Part shown: piece after piece, positions 14,020-64,000 of the stretch
Layout of the letters: the number at the start of each line of letters is the position of its first letter
Position numbering within the stretch: the stretch's first letter is position 1
Assembly: GCA_002726235.1 (NCBI GenBank)
Contig: PBSN01000008.1
Span: 606,136-670,135 of the forward strand
Length of the DNA: 64,000 nt
DNA from: Nitrospiraceae bacterium
GTDB taxonomy: Bacteria > Nitrospirota > Nitrospiria > Nitrospirales > UBA2166
Direction of reading: 5' to 3'
The notes under the pieces: generated by a model
What the model was told of the DNA's origin: nothing
The model's database searches: none
The model's input: only the letters and a program-made list of their open reading frames with translations
Translations under genes and position numbers: made by a program

Positions 14020-15198
14020 ATGTTTACACAGTCCCTGACCAATCTTCAGGAAGCCTATCTGCTCCGAACACTCCACCGAACTGAGTCTGCCCAGGATGCT
14101 GAGATCACCATCAAAGGAAAGACTATCATCCTATTCTCATCCAACAACTATCTTGGCCTCGCTAATCATCGAAAACTTAAAGAAGCCGCCATTACCGCCA
14201 TTAAACAGTACGGATTTGGTTCCGGGGCGTCGCGATTGCTTTCTGGAACCATGAGTCTACACGAACAACTTGAAGCTCGCCTCGCATCCTTTGCAAAAAC
14301 AGCCGCTGCTCTCACGTTTAACTCAGGATATCATGCGAACCTCGGTCTAATTCAAACGTTGGTCGAAGAACTCCAACCACATTGTCTCGTACTTGCAGAC
14401 CGTGCATGCCATGCAAGTCTCATCGATGCTATTCGGCTTACAAAAGCCCGCCTCAAAGTGTACCAACACCAGAACACCGAACAACTTGAACGGCTTCTCT
14501 CAACACATGCCGTAACCGAAGCCAGAAACAGTCTTGTCGTCACCGAAGGAGTCTTCAGTATGGATGGAGATATCACTCCGCTACCGAAACTACTCACATG
14601 TATCGAGAAATCCTCAGCGATGTTGCTCGTTGATGATGCTCATGGAATTGGCGTTATGGGATCCACTGGACGTGGGACTATCGAACACTTTGATCTTGAA
14701 ACAAAGATTCCTATTCGCATGGGAACACTCGGCAAAGCACTAGGATGCGTGGGAGCCTTCGTAGCTGGACCGCATGATCTCATACAGCTCCTCATCAACC
14801 GTGCCCGGTCATTCATCTACACAACCGCTCCACCTCCAGCCTTTGCGGCAGCCGCACTTGCTGCCTTAACGATTCTAGAAACTGAGCCAGAACGCAGGGA
14901 AAAATTATGGTGGAACCGAGATTACATGCTCTCAAATCTAAAATCCCTTGGATACAACACCATGCACACCGAAAGCCCAATTCTCCCAGTACTGATTGGT
15001 GATCCCTCACGTACACTTCAATTCTCACAGCGACTCTTTGCACGCGGCATCTATGCCCCAGCCATTCGTCCACCAACAGTCCCTCGGGGAACAAGCCGGC
15101 TACGGATAAGTATGATGGCAACCCACCAACAATCCCAGCTGGATTATGCCTTAGACGTCTTTAGAGACGTGGGTCGGTCGTTAGGAATTATTGCTTGA
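14020..15198 (+). CDS. bioF: 8-amino-7-oxononanoate synthase
   Basis: PLP-dependent alpha-oxoamine synthase of 392 aa that condenses pimeloyl thioester with alanine in biotin synthesis. Motifs are GSGASRLLSGT (68-78), DDAHGIGVMG (205-214) and the PLP-binding lysine K239 in MGTLGKALGCVGAF. The LGKALG form and HGIG are typical of BioF rather than of serine palmitoyltransferase. No other bio synthesis gene is adjacent, although birA is at 23731-24477. A paralogous enzyme of the same superfamily is encoded at 17986-19161. The 3' end overlaps the convergent downstream gene by 11 bases. Confidence 0.88.
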   Translation: MFTQSLTNLQEAYLLRTLHRTESAQDAEITIKGKTIILFSSNNYLGLANHRKLKEAAITAIKQYGFGSGASRLLSGTMSLHEQLEARLASFAKTAAALTFNSGYHANLGLIQTLVEELQPHCLVLADRACHASLIDAIRLTKARLKVYQHQNTEQLERLLSTHAVTEARNSLVVTEGVFSMDGDITPLPKLLTCIEKSSAMLLVDDAHGIGVMGSTGRGTIEHFDLETKIPIRMGTLGKALGCVGAFVAGPHDLIQLLINRARSFIYTTAPPPAFAAAALAALTILETEPERREKLWWNRDYMLSNLKSLGYNTMHTESPILPVLIGDPSRTLQFSQRLFARGIYAPAIRPPTVPRGTSRLRISMMATHQQSQLDYALDVFRDVGRSLGIIA

Positions 15199-16051
15199 CG
15201 GAAAAGTTTACGACTGGATCGAATATCGTGGGAGGGGAAATATGAGGTCCCATGCTAAATTCAGCAATTCTAAATTCCTCTAATTCCTCAGTGACCACTG
15301 TGGTATGCATGGTGACACCGCCTATCACCGGCATATTAACCGTTTCAATAGATTTAATCAGACCAACATGAGGAGCAAACCAACTGATCAACTTATCCTT
15401 CGTTACAATAACCTCACCATTCGATGACATTGTAACGGTCAGTTCCATCTTCCCGTTCAGCCTTAGTACATTCTGAAACGTCCCCGCTAACACCGAAAGG
15501 GTTTCCAACGACCCAACGGTTATTTCGGCAAACGCATCAACATGCTCGTTAATACCATCTCCATCTATGTCTTGAAACAAGTCACCATCTTTTAAGTTGA
15601 ATTGTCGAAGGGTTTGTTGTTCAAGCAACGGAAATCTGACCACCGGATACGGGGTAAGTTGTTGTTCAAATAAATCATGAGGATGACTGCCATGATATAT
15701 CACACCCTCATCCCCAACATGATAGTAGCTTTCCCTCTCACCCCTATTGCTAGGATTGGTTTCGATAAAAACAATCACACGCTGACCATCCTTCTGCATC
15801 GTCTTGACCGCAGTTGCGCTGTTCATGTAAACGGCAATATTGGTAGCGGTGAGTTGTACTTCCCTCTTATGTTCTGTTCCCTGATAATGCCACACGCTTC
15901 CAATTGGAGCAGAAAAATATGACTCTGGGTTGGCAATAGGAGTTGGAGCCGTTGGGATCGGCACAAACCCGACATTGAACATGCCACACACCACTACCAC
16001 TAGGCTATCCAGCATGCGGAACCTGACTTTCATTAGCTCCATCAACAACAT
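15188..16051 (-). CDS. Secreted protein of unknown function
   Basis: Protein of up to 287 aa with an N-terminal hydrophobic segment (about 15-30) consistent with export, then a globular region. Visible features are a calcium-loop-like DIDGDGINEHVD (about 165-176), an AGTFQNVLRL segment and SWFAPHVGLIKSIE. The last two recall secreted beta-rich proteins with 'AGTFxxCLxV' and 'WYAPGVGLVK' motifs, but I cannot name the family. The start is uncertain: ATGs at 16051, 16042 and 16033 are all possible, the last preceded by GGAG. The gene converges on bioF and overlaps it by 11 bases. Confidence 0.65.
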   Translation of the reverse strand: MLLMELMKVRFRMLDSLVVVVCGMFNVGFVPIPTAPTPIANPESYFSAPIGSVWHYQGTEHKREVQLTATNIAVYMNSATAVKTMQKDGQRVIVFIETNPSNRGERESYYHVGDEGVIYHGSHPHDLFEQQLTPYPVVRFPLLEQQTLRQFNLKDGDLFQDIDGDGINEHVDAFAEITVGSLETLSVLAGTFQNVLRLNGKMELTVTMSSNGEVIVTKDKLISWFAPHVGLIKSIETVNMPVIGGVTMHTTVVTEELEEFRIAEFSMGPHISPPTIFDPVVNFSVKQ

Positions 16052-16581: not shown

Positions 16582-17973
16582 TTGAGACACCTTAAACTAC
16601 ATCGCTGGTTTACAACAGGCCCACTCCAGCTAATCTTCAAGAACGCTGGAATCCTGCTCAGTGGAAGATCAGTCGCGGGATTATGCAACCTCGGTTCTCT
16701 CGCCCTCGCAGCGCGTACTCTTGGCCCTGAGGTTTTTGGCACCCTCGTTCTCATCCATACTGTCATTCGGTTGATCACAGGCATTGCAAAATTCCAGTCT
16801 TGGCAGGCTGTCATCCGGTACGGAGCAGTAAGTCTACAGGCCAAGAAACATCAGGATTTTCATAGGCTGATTATCTTCACAGTACTGCTCGATGCGGCAA
16901 GCGCACTGCTCGGAGCAATGATAGCAATCCTTGCAGCACCACTTATTGCGCCATATCTCGGATGGAGTTATGACGTGACATCCATGGCAATGCTTTACGG
17001 CACTGTCATTCTGTTCAGCATCACTGCCACACCAACAGGAATTCTTCGTCTCTTTAACCGCTTCGACCTTCTGTCGATCCACGCAATCATCTCACCAGGA
17101 ATCCGCTTAATCGGGGGAAGCATTCTCTACTTTTACAGTGTCGGTTTATGGGGATTCTTATCCATATGGTTCATCGCGAGTGTTGTCAGCGGAATCACAC
17201 TTGTCGTCATGGGCTGGTGGGAACTACGCAAGCGTGAACTTATCCCTCCGAGAAGTCTTTCCTTCCATAACCTCACTCAACCGCACTCCGGACTGTGGCG
17301 ATTCGTCTTTGCAACGAATATCCAAAGTTCATTGGATCTTACGACCGGACATCTCACGACATTGATGGTCGGCTGGGTCCTTGGACCAACTGCTGCTGGG
17401 CTGTTCAGAATTGCGAAGGAACTGTCTACCGTGCTCTCCAGAGCCGGCGGACTCTTGGCGGAATCAACGTATCCAGAGTTGGCAAAGCTATCCACTCAAA
17501 AGCAAAACAAGACTTTCCGGCGCGTGGTCTTTCGGTCCGGACTTGTCGCAGGAAGCGGTGCAACCATGATTTTTTTCAGCATGATCCTTCTTGGCGAACT
17601 GCTTCTCCGATTGACCGTAGGAATTGAATTTGTTGCTGCCTATCCACTCCTTCTTCTCCTCATCTTTGCCGAAACAATTGGAGCATTTGGATTTGGCCTC
17701 AATTCAGCTATGTATGCTATTGGCCGTCCTGGCATTCCATTGAAGGTCAATATCACCACAACCGCACTCTACCTTCCTTTACTTTTCTTTTTGGTGACAC
17801 AGGTGAACATAATCGGCGCTGGAATTGCTTTCATCGTATTTCTAGCAGCGAGATTCGTCGCAATGGCAACGATCACGACACGGCTTCTTTCTCGAGTCGA
17901 TACAACGCCACCCGTAAATACCCAAGGCTCCGCCACATTGCATGACTCCACGCCAACTGGCAAAGGGATGTGA
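16582..17973 (+). CDS. Polysaccharide/lipid flippase (Wzx-like)
   Basis: Integral membrane protein of about 463 aa with 12-14 hydrophobic helices. It is of the oligosaccharide flippase type (MATE/MVF superfamily), which translocates lipid-linked sugars across the inner membrane. The N-terminal segment KNAGILLSGRSVAGLCNLGSL and the AARTLGPEVFGTL loop after helix 1 are typical of the family. The start is the TTG at 16582, with no clear ribosome binding site, so the true start may lie slightly downstream. The gene converges on the serine palmitoyltransferase gene with 12 bases between the stops. A role in moving a product of that cluster is possible but unproven. Confidence 0.75.
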   Translation: MRHLKLHRWFTTGPLQLIFKNAGILLSGRSVAGLCNLGSLALAARTLGPEVFGTLVLIHTVIRLITGIAKFQSWQAVIRYGAVSLQAKKHQDFHRLIIFTVLLDAASALLGAMIAILAAPLIAPYLGWSYDVTSMAMLYGTVILFSITATPTGILRLFNRFDLLSIHAIISPGIRLIGGSILYFYSVGLWGFLSIWFIASVVSGITLVVMGWWELRKRELIPPRSLSFHNLTQPHSGLWRFVFATNIQSSLDLTTGHLTTLMVGWVLGPTAAGLFRIAKELSTVLSRAGGLLAESTYPELAKLSTQKQNKTFRRVVFRSGLVAGSGATMIFFSMILLGELLLRLTVGIEFVAAYPLLLLLIFAETIGAFGFGLNSAMYAIGRPGIPLKVNITTTALYLPLLFFLVTQVNIIGAGIAFIVFLAARFVAMATITTRLLSRVDTTPPVNTQGSATLHDSTPTGKGM

Positions 17974-17985
17974 TGGTGGAAATTG

Positions 17986-19161
17986 TTAACTAAAGGACAA
18001 GAAGGCTTGGCAAATCTTTTCGATCTGCTCGTCGGTGTGACCTGCACTTACACTACAACGCAACAAACACCCTCCATTTGGTGCGGCCGGAGGCAAAACC
18101 AGATTCACATACACACCGTGTTCCATCAGTTGACTCCATAACCCAATCCCTCGCTCTTTCGTTTCCACCAGTGCAGCGATGACCGGACTAGGCTCCGGAC
18201 CCAAGGTAAACCCCATATCCTGTAAGCTCTCATAGAGACATGTCGCATTTTCCCAGAGCCTCTGACGCAATTCTGGATGTGTCTCGATAATCCGAAGAGC
18301 GGCGCGTGTTGAGGCAACGACGGAAGGGGAAGGCGACGCTGTAAAAATGTAGGGACGGCTTGCATACCGTATCATCTCTACTTCAGGATGTCTGCTTACA
18401 CAAAACCCCCCAGTGGCGCCGAGACTTTTGCTGAATGTTCCCACGATCAAGTCCACGCTTTCCTCAACACCAGCCTCTTCAGCAAGCCCTCGACCATTCT
18501 TTCCAAGGACCCCAAGAGAATGAGCTTCATCAACCACAAGAAACGCCTGATATTTCGTCCTGATGGCTGCAATATCCTTAAGAGGAGCACGGTCGCCGAG
18601 CATGCTGTAAATACCCTCAACAATAATCAACACGCGTGAGGCGCGATCACCAAGCCTCCGCAAGCGCTTCTCTAGATCACTGGCATCGTTGTGTCGGAAT
18701 CGAATAACCTCGGCATCGCCCATACGACACCCATCGTAAATACTGGCATGACAGTCCGCATCGAGAAGAATGACATCATCTGACCCAGCCAAGGTTGAAA
18801 GCAGTCCAATGTTGGCGAGATAGCCTGTCGAAAATACAATTGCCGACCCAACGTTAAAGAAGTCTGCAAGTTCCCTCTCTAACGCAATATGACCCGCAAA
18901 GGTTCCATTGGCCATCCTTGACCCTGTGGTACCCGTACCCTGTTCCTCCAACACTATACGTGCTGCGGCAATACAGTCGGGATGAAACGTCAGCCCAAGA
19001 TAATTATTGGTGCCTGCAAGAATCGTTCGACGCCCATTCACTATCGCTTCAGTGGAAGAAATCACTTGATCGATGACGACATTGAAGGGATCTCTCTCCC
19101 CTTCCCCAAGAAGGCTTTTCCGGGCCTCCGCAAGTTGCTGAAACTTATCAAAAATGGGCAT
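17986..19161 (-). CDS. spt: Serine palmitoyltransferase
   Basis: PLP enzyme of 391 aa that condenses serine with a long-chain acyl thioester to 3-oxosphinganine, the first step of sphingolipid synthesis. Besides the shared superfamily residues (H138 in DADCHASIYDG, D211 and H214 in VDEAHSLG, PLP lysine K245 in VGTFSKSLGATGGF) it has features I recall from Sphingomonas serine palmitoyltransferase: DPFNVVIDQV near the N-terminus, GTGTTGSRMANGTF, GTFSKS, RPYIFTAS (269-276) and the ending LLRCSVSAGHTDEQIEKI. These separate it from BioF and Kbl. Its start overlaps the acyl-carrier-protein stop (TAATG), which makes the ACP its likely acyl donor. Confidence 0.88.
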   Translation of the reverse strand: MPIFDKFQQLAEARKSLLGEGERDPFNVVIDQVISSTEAIVNGRRTILAGTNNYLGLTFHPDCIAAARIVLEEQGTGTTGSRMANGTFAGHIALERELADFFNVGSAIVFSTGYLANIGLLSTLAGSDDVILLDADCHASIYDGCRMGDAEVIRFRHNDASDLEKRLRRLGDRASRVLIIVEGIYSMLGDRAPLKDIAAIRTKYQAFLVVDEAHSLGVLGKNGRGLAEEAGVEESVDLIVGTFSKSLGATGGFCVSRHPEVEMIRYASRPYIFTASPSPSVVASTRAALRIIETHPELRQRLWENATCLYESLQDMGFTLGPEPSPVIAALVETKERGIGLWSQLMEHGVYVNLVLPPAAPNGGCLLRCSVSAGHTDEQIEKICQAFLSFS

Positions 19162-19409
19162 TATGATTGACGCGTAAGATGTTCAAGTTGCAACACAAAA
19201 TCTTTGATGGTTCGAACATCTGGAATAATATTCAGCGGGATCGAGATATCAAAACGATCCTCAACCTCAAGTAAAATCTGCATTACTTGTAATGAATCCA
19301 AGCCGATATCGGAAACCAACTCTGTCCCCTCGTCAAGTATGAGGTTATTGTTCGCATAGGGTGCCAAAATCGCGCACAGCTCAATCAAAATGTCGTCGTA
19401 GCTTTTCAT
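19161..19409 (-). CDS. Acyl carrier protein of the sphingolipid-type cluster
   Basis: Protein of 82 aa with a predicted four-helix acyl-carrier fold. The phosphopantetheine serine is S39 in DIGLDSLQVMQI. It lies 5 bases after the epimerase gene and overlaps the serine palmitoyltransferase gene by one base, so all three are probably cotranslated. In characterised bacterial ceramide pathways a dedicated ACP (AcpR in Caulobacter) is loaded by an acyl-ACP synthetase and feeds serine palmitoyltransferase. The same role is inferred here from context. It is not the housekeeping fatty-acid ACP, whose typical neighbours are absent. Confidence 0.85.
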   Translation of the reverse strand: MKSYDDILIELCAILAPYANNNLILDEGTELVSDIGLDSLQVMQILLEVEDRFDISIPLNIIPDVRTIKDFVLQLEHLTRQS

Positions 19410-19414
19410 ACGTG

Positions 19415-20401
19415 TTACGAATCTAGCCGGTACGGAACTGTCGTATCTGATTGTGCTGAAGAATGCGCTTTACATCCCCAACCAAAAGTTTTTCGCAACC
19501 CCTCATCAAGCGCAATTTTTGGGACCCATCCAATCGCATCACGAATAACCGCGTTATCACAGACCCAATTGTGATGCCGAAGCTCTCGAACCTTGCCTGG
19601 TGTAAACATCGGTGTGTAGCCCGTGAGACGCGATGCAGTGATGTTGCATAGGGCAACAAACCTCAACAATGATTCCGAAATTGAAAAACGAGCCACACGC
19701 CGTTGACAGATTCGCTCTACAGTATCGATGACATCATTCCAGCTATATCCGCCAGGATAGCCATCGTGGAATTCCACGACCCGAAGAGCGGAAAATGGAT
19801 TCTCTAGACACATCACCACGGCATCCGCAAGATCATCCACGTACAGCAATGAGAATCGTGCGTGATCATGACCAAGCTTCAGCGCAATACCTCTTCCCAT
19901 CCACTCGAACAGCGGGCGCAACTCACGATCACCCGGTCCGTATACCGCCGGAGGCCGTAGCACCATCCACTCCATATCCCTCGCCAGTAACGCAAGTTGT
20001 GCTTCCCCTTGCAACTTACTCGTCGCATACGGAGACAGCACGGGCTCACGAGCTGCCAAAGAAGACATCAGCAAGAAACGTGGAACCCTGGTTTGGTCAC
20101 AAGAAGCTTGTAGGACGTTTTCGACACCATGGACATTCACGGACTCGAAATCGGCCAAAGAAGCTCCACGAACAAGCCCGGCGCAGTGTACCACATCATC
20201 CACGCCTTCAACGAGGCGGCGGAGACTTCCAAAATCTGACAGATCTCCTTCAACAAACTGGATTGGAATGGTAGCAAGATTGGCTGTCCGGGACGATGCA
20301 CGCACAAGCGCACGAACAACCCAGCCCGCAGCATGAAACCTGTGTGCTAATACATTGCCGATAAATCCCGTTGCCCCAGTTAAGGCAACTATCCTGGACA
20401 T
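19415..20401 (-). CDS. NAD(P)-dependent epimerase/reductase (candidate CerR)
   Basis: Extended short-chain dehydrogenase of 328 aa. The Rossmann motif is GATGFIG (residues 9-15) and the catalytic pair is Y125/K129 in SPYATSKLQGEAQ, with upstream MSSLAA providing the serine. The fold class includes 3-beta-hydroxysteroid dehydrogenases and dihydroflavonol reductases. Position between the acyl ligase and ACP/serine palmitoyltransferase genes parallels CerR in Caulobacter, which reduces the 3-keto group of the sphingoid intermediate. That role is inferred from context. Without the neighbours it would be an unassigned NAD-epimerase. Confidence 0.8.
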   Translation of the reverse strand: MSRIVALTGATGFIGNVLAHRFHAAGWVVRALVRASSRTANLATIPIQFVEGDLSDFGSLRRLVEGVDDVVHCAGLVRGASLADFESVNVHGVENVLQASCDQTRVPRFLLMSSLAAREPVLSPYATSKLQGEAQLALLARDMEWMVLRPPAVYGPGDRELRPLFEWMGRGIALKLGHDHARFSLLYVDDLADAVVMCLENPFSALRVVEFHDGYPGGYSWNDVIDTVERICQRRVARFSISESLLRFVALCNITASRLTGYTPMFTPGKVRELRHHNWVCDNAVIRDAIGWVPKIALDEGLRKTFGWGCKAHSSAQSDTTVPYRLDS

Positions 20402-20484
20402 GGAAAGAGCCTAGTAAAGCATCGGACAATCTGATTATTTTGTTTGAAAAGGCATTGGTGCAGCACAGTTGGCAGAACAGCCCA

Positions 20485-20610
20485 CAGGATGTTCACAAGG
20501 GCTTCCAAATGCGGCTACAGAAAGCGAACGATCGAGAAAGAAGTGCACACGTTGAGATTCTGAACGATGCAAGAACAACGCGAAAGATCAGGTTTTTCTC
20601 AGCATCCTGC
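20485..20610. repeat. Palindromic intergenic element, CAGGATG...CATCCTG
   Basis: A 126-bp element with inverted ends: CAGGATGTTCACAAGG on the left and, on the opposite strand, CAGGATGCTGAGAAAAAC on the right. Internal segments such as CTGAACGATGCAAGAACA fit a 'GTTCTCGCATCGTTCAG' pattern that I remember from repeats scattered through Nitrospira genomes. It has no coding capacity. It begins 6 bases after the acyl-AMP ligase stop and fills much of the gap to the epimerase gene. It may act as a transcript-end structure or be a non-autonomous mobile element. Confidence 0.65.
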
Positions 20611-20616
20611 TAGCGG

Positions 20617-22419
20617 TCACCCCGTAGCGCCACATTCACGTGCTAATTCTGAAGAGGCATGTTTTGACTCGTTCGAGAAAAGCTGACCTCGGCGCTGAAG
20701 AAAGTCCTGCCGAGTCCGCGAGCGAGAAAGTTTACCCGATGACGTACGAGGCAATGTGTGAGGACGGGCTAATTCAATAAAGCAGTTGATCCCAAGTTCC
20801 TCGCGGATCATACGCTGCAACCGATCAATGAGATTTCCTCCTTGGATGCCGGTGAACTCACCGCATTGAACCACCATCATAGCCAACTCCTCACCATCCA
20901 CACCTGAAACGGAAAATGCAGACGCGTCTCCAGGTCTGACTTCAGGTTGCTGTTCCGCCAAATATTCAAGATCCTGAGGCCAAATATTTCGCCCGTTGAT
21001 GATAATGAGGTCCTTGATCCGGCCCGTGATGAAGAGATGTCCCTTGACACGATACCCAACATCTCCTGTATTCAGCCACCCATCAGGCGATAGAACCTCT
21101 TGTGTGGCATCCGCGTCCCCACAGTAACTCGTCATAATACTCGGTCCACGGAGAAAAATCGTTCCGCATTCTCTATCGCCTAATTCACGGCCCTCTTCAT
21201 TGCGAATTTGAATTTCGTACTCCGGCAGGGGCTTTCCACAATTCACGAAACTACTTACACCTGACCGATTTCCATCTCCAGTTCCATTGGGCGCGACTCG
21301 TGCCACCTGTCGCTCAGAGAGATAATCTCTATCAACACGATCGATCTCAAGACCTTGAAACACCGGAGCAAAGCTTACGGCGAGAGAACATTCAGCCATG
21401 CCATAACATGCCATAAACGCGTTAGCATTGAATCCAGTCCCGTTAAGAGCCTTCGCAAAATTCGCTAATGATTCATGGCGAATCATTTCCGCGCCAGCGC
21501 CAGCAACTCGCCAACTTCGAAGATCAAGTGCCGTAGCATCTTCTTGCCGAAAACGACGCGTGCAGAGGTCATATCCAAATGTCGGACTAAAGGAAATCGT
21601 GGCGGAATTCTTCGCAATTAGGGAAAGCCATTGTCGCGGGCGCATCGCAAAATCTCGTGGACTGAGGTAATCAGTAGAAAGCTGAGAAGCAACTGGACCA
21701 AGCACAAACCCCACGAGGCCCATGTCGTGATAGAACGGAAGCCAGGAAACGCAACGATCAAAAGATCGGACGGCGAGGCCGTGTTTTATGATACCAGAGA
21801 GGTTATTTAACACCGCCTGTTGGGTAATCATCACACCTCGAGGAAAGCGCGTACTCCCAGATGTATACTGGAGGTAGGCAACCTCGTCTGACCCAAGTGG
21901 GCTCAACGCGTTCGTGCCTTCGGAAAGTGCTCCAAAATCCTCTGGGCTACCGACAAATCGAAGATCCAATCCTTCAGAAGCCTCTGTAAGAAATGGCAGA
22001 AAAGCTAGAGGCGCCACTGCAACTGAGGCTTGGCAGATTACGAGCAAGGCCCGCAACTGTTCAACATACACAGATCGATTGGAGAGATGAATGAACGCCG
22101 GAAGCGGTACTGGCACCAAGCCTGCGTACTGGCAGGCAAAGAAAAACCGTATAAAATCAGGACTAGTATCCGCAAGAAGAGCAACTCGTGTCCCACGCGG
22201 AAGTCCCAGACCTTGAAGACGGCGCGCCAACGTTTGTGCCTGTTCGCGCAATTCCGCATAGGAAACCACAGTATAAAGCTCACCTTTGCCGGTATAAAAG
22301 TTACACCCGGTCACACCTCGTGCGGCGTAGTCCAGCGCTTCTGAAAGATTGTCGAATTCGCCTGGCCGAAGCGGCACTCTGTTCTCGGTTGGAGTTGGCT
22401 TCATTTCATTAACCCTCAC
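20617..22419 (-). CDS. Fatty acyl-AMP ligase / acyl-ACP synthetase
   Basis: Adenylate-forming enzyme of 600 aa, of the FAAL type that activates fatty acids as acyl-AMP and passes them to an acyl carrier protein rather than CoA. It shows the P-loop YTSGSTRFPRGVM (185-197), the GDVGY motif and the INGRNIWPQDLE segment typical of FAALs, then a small C-terminal domain ending with a PRTSSGKLSRS catalytic-lysine motif. The start is either GTG 22419 or ATG 22404, which has GAGG upstream. Together with the downstream epimerase, ACP and serine palmitoyltransferase it completes a set like the Caulobacter ceramide genes. A repeat element separates it from the epimerase gene. Confidence 0.85.
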   Translation of the reverse strand: MRVNEMKPTPTENRVPLRPGEFDNLSEALDYAARGVTGCNFYTGKGELYTVVSYAELREQAQTLARRLQGLGLPRGTRVALLADTSPDFIRFFFACQYAGLVPVPLPAFIHLSNRSVYVEQLRALLVICQASVAVAPLAFLPFLTEASEGLDLRFVGSPEDFGALSEGTNALSPLGSDEVAYLQYTSGSTRFPRGVMITQQAVLNNLSGIIKHGLAVRSFDRCVSWLPFYHDMGLVGFVLGPVASQLSTDYLSPRDFAMRPRQWLSLIAKNSATISFSPTFGYDLCTRRFRQEDATALDLRSWRVAGAGAEMIRHESLANFAKALNGTGFNANAFMACYGMAECSLAVSFAPVFQGLEIDRVDRDYLSERQVARVAPNGTGDGNRSGVSSFVNCGKPLPEYEIQIRNEEGRELGDRECGTIFLRGPSIMTSYCGDADATQEVLSPDGWLNTGDVGYRVKGHLFITGRIKDLIIINGRNIWPQDLEYLAEQQPEVRPGDASAFSVSGVDGEELAMMVVQCGEFTGIQGGNLIDRLQRMIREELGINCFIELARPHTLPRTSSGKLSRSRTRQDFLQRRGQLFSNESKHASSELARECGATG

Positions 22420-63508: not shown

Positions 63509-64000
63509 CACCCTTACTCCATATGTTCAGGCTCAATGAGCGAAAGCATCTTAGCACGATCGTCGAAGCATGAAAGTCTTGACAAATAATGTTCCTAAAG
63601 CTCCAAAGAGGGTTCGCGATAACGTCTGGAGAAGCAATAAGGCTTATGACCGGGTGGTCTCTATTTAATATATCAATTGCAGGAAATAGCAGTTTATCAG
63701 CAATACGACAACACGCGGACAGCAACATACAGAATACGTCAACACAAAAAACCGCGTAACGTGATGCGACAACATCGTGTGGATAATGCATTAAAAACAA
63801 AGAGACTGAAGTATGCCAACGAAAGGTCGTATTCGTTGCCTCAGGAGAGGAAGCACAGAACTGCGGTGGGTGTCATATATCTTAACCTCGAAAAGTCTTT
63901 CCCAATACACCGGAAGCTGCACTAGACGTGGATACCGTCAGCGATTGGGCACTGGTTCAAGACATTGCACGGTCGTTTCGGCCTGCTCAAGATCCTCAGC
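63509..64000. other. Right-edge region; possible start of a truncated gene
   Basis: No complete gene. From about 63928 a forward frame beginning GTG reads DVDTVSDWALVQDIARSF to the window end and looks protein-like, so a gene may begin here and run past the edge. There is no clear ribosome binding site. Other small open frames in this stretch look like shadows. Confidence 0.3.

Follow-up and report, generated by a model that had tools for sequence, protein, structure and literature searches.

A gene cluster on the minus strand of a Nitrospirales genome very probably makes the first intermediates of sphingolipid synthesis, and the same genome appears to hold the rest of a Caulobacter-type phosphosphingolipid pathway. 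The genome examined is a 1.87 Mb draft, 90.65% complete, and the window, by which we mean the whole stretch of 64,000 nucleotides that was analysed, is the right end of its contig C8. The sequence-only reading of this DNA had claimed four minus-strand open reading frames, and all four are present, in the order aasR-cerR-acpR-spt (window positions 22404 to 17986). This order is kept in congeners, in other Nitrospirales, in Desulfobacterota-like MAGs and in Proteobacteria, and together with the family scores of spt and of the ligase it is well beyond chance. Both of the named relatives closest to this genome are Nitrospirae MAGs, in support of the earlier suggestion that the DNA might come from a Nitrospirota.

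The first gene of the cluster, aasR (20617-22404, in an ORF that extends to 22419), codes for a predicted acyl-AcpR synthetase, or fatty acyl-AMP ligase. Its product scores 764.8 bits against NF006624 (cut-off 600) and is 48% identical to AasR of Escherichia coli BL21(DE3); the ATG at 22404 (MKPTPTEN..., which aligns with relatives) is more likely to be its start than the GTG at 22419. It lies 215 bases upstream of cerR (19415-20401), which codes for a member of the NAD-dependent epimerase/dehydratase family (PF01370) that is 41% identical to BL21 CerR over its full length. The place of cerR between aasR and acpR is conserved, and homology and gene position make the protein a putative 3-oxo-sphinganine or 3-oxo-ceramide reductase. 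Five bases separate cerR from acpR (19161-19409). The product of acpR matches PF00550, has a GLDSL phosphopantetheine site and falls under every NCBIfam cut-off for housekeeping acyl carrier proteins; it aligns with BL21 AcpR, and its gene occupies the same position as acpR of BL21 and Caulobacter. It is a candidate for a specialised carrier. The last gene, spt (17986-19161), overlaps acpR by a single base (TAATG) and codes for a predicted serine palmitoyltransferase (SPT) of the Rhodobacteria type, discussed below.

The N-acyltransferase needed to complete a ceramide had been noted as missing from the cluster, which is true of the window; the gene exists elsewhere in the genome. A profile built from seven relatives and run against the genome found one bCerS/YghO homologue (C8:90714-91835; E=3.6e-177), 50% identical to BL21 YghO, so that all five ceramide genes, aasR, cerR, acpR, spt and cerS, are present in the genome, four in the window and one at this position. 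The bCerS gene adjoins two nucleotidyltransferase genes, of the CC_1153 and CC_1152 types. Genes for a phosphosphingolipid head group and for export were also found. Contig C16 opens with a CC_1152-type gene, of which it has the 5' end, followed in order by LptF2, LptG2 and genes for a phosphoesterase (CC_1158-like), a CDP-alcohol transferase (CC_1159-like), a kinase (CC_1160-like; ceramide kinase), a CC_1161-like protein and BioD. Thus, homologues of CC_1152, 1153, 1158, 1159, 1160 and 1161 and of LptF2/G2 are all found, on C16 and in the stretch of C8 around bCerS (locus L018); the assignments to Caulobacter genes were made indirectly, through gene descriptions in the literature and through the clusters of Roseomonas, E. 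coli and Desulfobacterota-like genomes. The roles of the CC_1158-, CC_1159- and CC_1161-like proteins are putative, by homology and position, and the exact reactions of these proteins and of CerR are unsettled even in Caulobacter. Two biotin genes, bioF (14020-15198 of the window) and bioD (C16:6650-7357), both have a block of sphingolipid genes close by or directly adjoining, possibly by chance.

Beside spt, and convergent with it, lies a plus-strand gene for a Wzx-like flippase (16582-17973; PF01943/PF13440). The protein is 30% identical to a flippase-like protein encoded at the spt locus of BL21 and 36% identical to the product of a Roseomonas gene directly upstream of acpR-spt, and its position beside spt is kept in two congeners (L003 and L071); it is a candidate for the sphingolipid flippase, in the role of CC_1166. 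The protein encoded at 15188-16051 has no Pfam or NCBIfam match and an N-terminus that resembles a secretion signal; two congeners have it too, likewise with the flippase on one side and bioF on the other. Elsewhere on C8 lie LpxC and, in addition to the pair on C16, another LptF/LptG pair, so that LPS is probably made as well. A fatty-acid hydroxylase, which relatives carry, was sought in the genome (a 90.65% complete draft) and none was found; the acyl chain is on this account predicted to be without a hydroxyl.

What the sequences themselves establish are the genes, the families to which they belong, their kept order and their co-occurrence. Work in Caulobacter and E. coli, from which we infer the substrates, products, head group, transport and location, suggests how these genes could act together. 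AasR, AcpR and SPT of E. coli BL21(DE3) and Caulobacter have been shown to give 3-oxo-sphinganine (PMC9386255). By analogy, AasR would load a free fatty acid onto AcpR, and SPT would condense the acyl-AcpR with L-serine to 3-oxo-sphinganine. N-acylation by bCerS and reduction of the ketone by CerR would then give dihydroceramide; which of the two comes first is a matter of dispute for Caulobacter. The ceramide kinase and the CC_1152/1153/1158/1159/1161-like enzymes would add a phosphoglycerate-type head group, and the flippase and a second LptF/LptG pair, LptF2/LptG2, would bring the product out to the outer membrane, where it would sit alongside ordinary LPS. That the organism makes sphingoid lipids, as the sequence-only reading had also proposed, is what the gene content leads us to infer.

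The head group is where a competing reading has most room. It shares the ceramide steps and holds that the C16 genes do other work, the end product being ceramide or a glycosylated form, with no ceramide phosphoglycerate. The C16 genes sit on a separate contig, the kinase-like protein shares only about 31% identity with its Roseomonas counterpart, and C. crescentus makes glycosphingolipids too. However, in the congener G350 and in G378 the C16-type genes share one contig with bCerS, and Roseomonas and Desulfobacterota-like clusters also hold genes of this type together with bCerS. We regard this reading as rather unlikely, though it deserves to be kept in mind, and favor a phosphoglycerate-type head group.

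In this genome the pathway genes are found in three places: the window locus, the bCerS group on C8, and C16. The congener G350, in contrast, has nearly all of them on two contigs, one with CerK-CC_1159-CC_1158-LptG2-LptF2-CC_1152-CC_1153-bCerS-hydroxylase-HIT-aasR-cerR (C109) and the other with cerR-acpR-spt-flippase-bioF (C103), and both contigs end inside cerR. An ancestral cluster was thus split in the window species. There, as in UBA2166, the neighbour of the bCerS group is a gene, named from its sequence, that resembles undecaprenyl-diphosphate synthase, and the cluster is therefore a broken one.

At the end of contig C8, positions 63910-64000 of the window (plus strand, 91 bases) are the edge of a nucleotidyltransferase gene of the CC_1152 type, and this gene is repeated. 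They are 100% identical to the other C8 copy (L018 14990-14900), and C16:1-98 is 100% identical to L018 14283-14186; the two matched edges bound a stretch of about 805 bases at C8:89 kb, around the gene of the CC_1152 type. From this the gene seems to occur twice; the assembly would have broken at the second copy, whose interior is absent from it. We considered a join of C8 to C16 through this repeat. Because the repeats are inverted, the alternative pairing, with LptF2 beside CC_1152-1153-bCerS as in G350, fits at least as well. The inverted orientation would also be compatible with an inversion or with an assembly ambiguity.

The pathway starts with the PLP enzyme encoded by spt. This protein scores 620.9 bits against the serine palmitoyltransferase equivalog NF047599 (curated cut-off 500), the only cut-off that it passes; it lies under those of the sister families BioF (337 against 426), KBL (324 against 460) and HemA (235 against 339), and under that of the CAI-1 synthase CqsA (221 against 428), a family compared by profile score only. 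The protein shares 53% identity with the SPT of S. wittichii and 52% with that of S. paucimobilis, both of solved structure, and 58% with BL21 SPT. In the phylogeny against SPT, BioF, KBL and HemA, a maximum-likelihood tree of 48 rows in which PDB sequences were used with the letters shown in printed alignments, it falls in the SPT clade at 100/100, on a branch with the E. coli type of enzyme and the PDB entries 2x8u and 2jg2, apart from the other three families. On these profile scores and the tree, BioF, KBL and HemA were rejected as its identity. Residues K245, H138, D211, H214 and R368 are the equivalents of Lys265, His159, Asp231, His234 and Arg390; sister enzymes have these residues as well, so that they indicate a working fold and say nothing on whether serine, alanine or glycine is the substrate. 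Where S. paucimobilis SPT has Arg378, the present protein has Leu, as does E. coli SPT, and the Leu-bearing BL21 enzyme works in vivo (PMC9386255). Nostoc punctiforme offers a caution, as SPT-like residues were misleading there and the protein is BioF. The present case differs in that the Nostoc genome had one oxoamine synthase, and that one outside the SPT clade, whereas exactly two such genes were found here, spt and a genuine bioF (14020-15198; 458.7 bits, cut-off 426). Scores and phylogeny thus support the earlier proposal of a serine palmitoyltransferase, and specify one of the Rhodobacteria, AcpR-using type; the outcome that would have told against that proposal, a grouping with BioF or KBL, did not come about.

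Could an enzyme of this type serve a related lipid? With alanine as substrate the gene set might make a 1-deoxyceramide, and with cysteate a sulfonolipid; or it might supply a capsule with its acyl anchor, in the manner of the rhizobial RkpFGH proteins (an ACP, an oxoamine synthase and a reductase). SPTs that accept more than one substrate are known (PMC10196870), and 1-deoxyceramides occur in abundance in the Black Sea, where Desulfobacterota may be their source. Against this, the match of the protein to cysteate acyltransferase is 197 bits against 456 for SPT, a 1-deoxyceramide would lack the 1-hydroxyl for a kinase, and the presence of homologues of LptFG2, bCerS and ceramide kinase speaks for a ceramide that is phosphorylated. 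We find a product of this kind improbable. A BioF, a KBL or another α-oxoamine synthase unrelated to sphingolipids is more improbable still, to the point of being negligible: these enzymes belong to one superfamily whose members are often misannotated for one another, and the protein is 36% identical to KBL of T. thermophilus, but its scores, its separate clade, the BioF already present and the co-occurrence of spt with bCerS all speak for an SPT.

We surveyed 395 Nitrospirota genomes with the NF047599 cut-off. SPT of the window type was found in 13, with 12 passing the cut-off and one (G252) having the gene in two pieces. In G252, a single-contig genome with the remaining cluster intact, spt (L072 9254-10412) is in two overlapping frames, from a frameshift or a sequencing error. 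All 13 carriers belong to the order of the window, the Nitrospirales, and within the Nitrospirales the genomes that carry bCerS are exactly these 13. Another 148 of the 395 genomes have bCerS, all outside the order. Two of these loci were read (L073 8350-12121 and L074 8196-11505); both have cerR-spt-bCerS, with no adjacent acpR or aasR, and by coordinates spt and bCerS are adjacent on one contig in many others. The SPTs of the loci read are about 45% identical to the window SPT and nearest to that of Sphingobacterium. Since they score 594 and 579, just below the curated Bacteroidetes-type cut-off of 640, we call them Bacteroidetes-like by nearness and not by membership. By sequence comparison, a second SPT type thus appears to be widespread in other Nitrospirota lineages, so that in a single phylum the kind of SPT differs from lineage to lineage.

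The pathway itself is known; the host lineage is new relative to open papers, and we make no claim of priority. Genes for sphingolipids have already been inferred for 40 phyla (PMC11334938), and PMC10667739 cites a report of sphingolipid gene potential in Thermodesulfovibrio, a genus of Nitrospirota. The earlier remark that no description of sphingolipids was known from Nitrospirota is thus too broad for the phylum, at least as regards gene potential; for the Nitrospirales we found no open paper naming the lineage, subscription papers and supplements being outside the search. On the present genes, the phosphosphingolipid route of Caulobacter, apparently complete and including the genes for head group and export, extends to the Nitrospirales, and these organisms could be a further source of the sphingolipids found in soil, sediment and water. 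Perhaps, and here our confidence is evenly divided, part of the order has an outer membrane of LPS and ceramide phosphoglycerate, the latter exported by its own LptF2/LptG2, while other Nitrospirota lineages make sphingolipids with a Bacteroidetes-like SPT, the two systems having been acquired separately. The split cluster, set against the contiguous form of the congener, is a natural comparison for assigning the export and head-group genes.

Among known systems, CC_1152-CC_1168 of Caulobacter crescentus (PMC11324152, PMC9386255) has the same aasR-cerR-acpR-spt order and, as traced through the Roseomonas and E. coli copies, shares with this genome homologues of CerS, CC_1152/1153/1158/1159, CerK, CC_1161, LptF2, LptG2 and a flippase; unlike in Caulobacter, the gene set is here split over three places, and no fatty-acid hydroxylase was detected. 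The yghO-spt locus of E. coli BL21(DE3) (ECD_02850-02854) also has the same order, with the identities of 48% (AasR), 41% (CerR), 58% (SPT) and 50% (bCerS) given above. As in the window, acpR and spt of BL21 share one base (18714 of L101), and a flippase-like gene and LptFG2 are present in both; near the equivalent spt locus of an E. coli plasmid record we found no kinase or CDP-alcohol transferase homologues. Other Nitrospirota lineages have cerR, spt and bCerS together and, unlike the window, an SPT nearest the Sphingobacterium type. In the clusters of Nitrospirae bacterium MH1_Bin19 and other Nitrospirales, spt is 64-73% identical and homologues of bCerS, CC_1152, CC_1153 and usually LptF2 lie nearby; there, unlike here, the genes form a single contiguous cluster, and the clusters that were checked also include a HIT protein and a fatty-acid hydroxylase.
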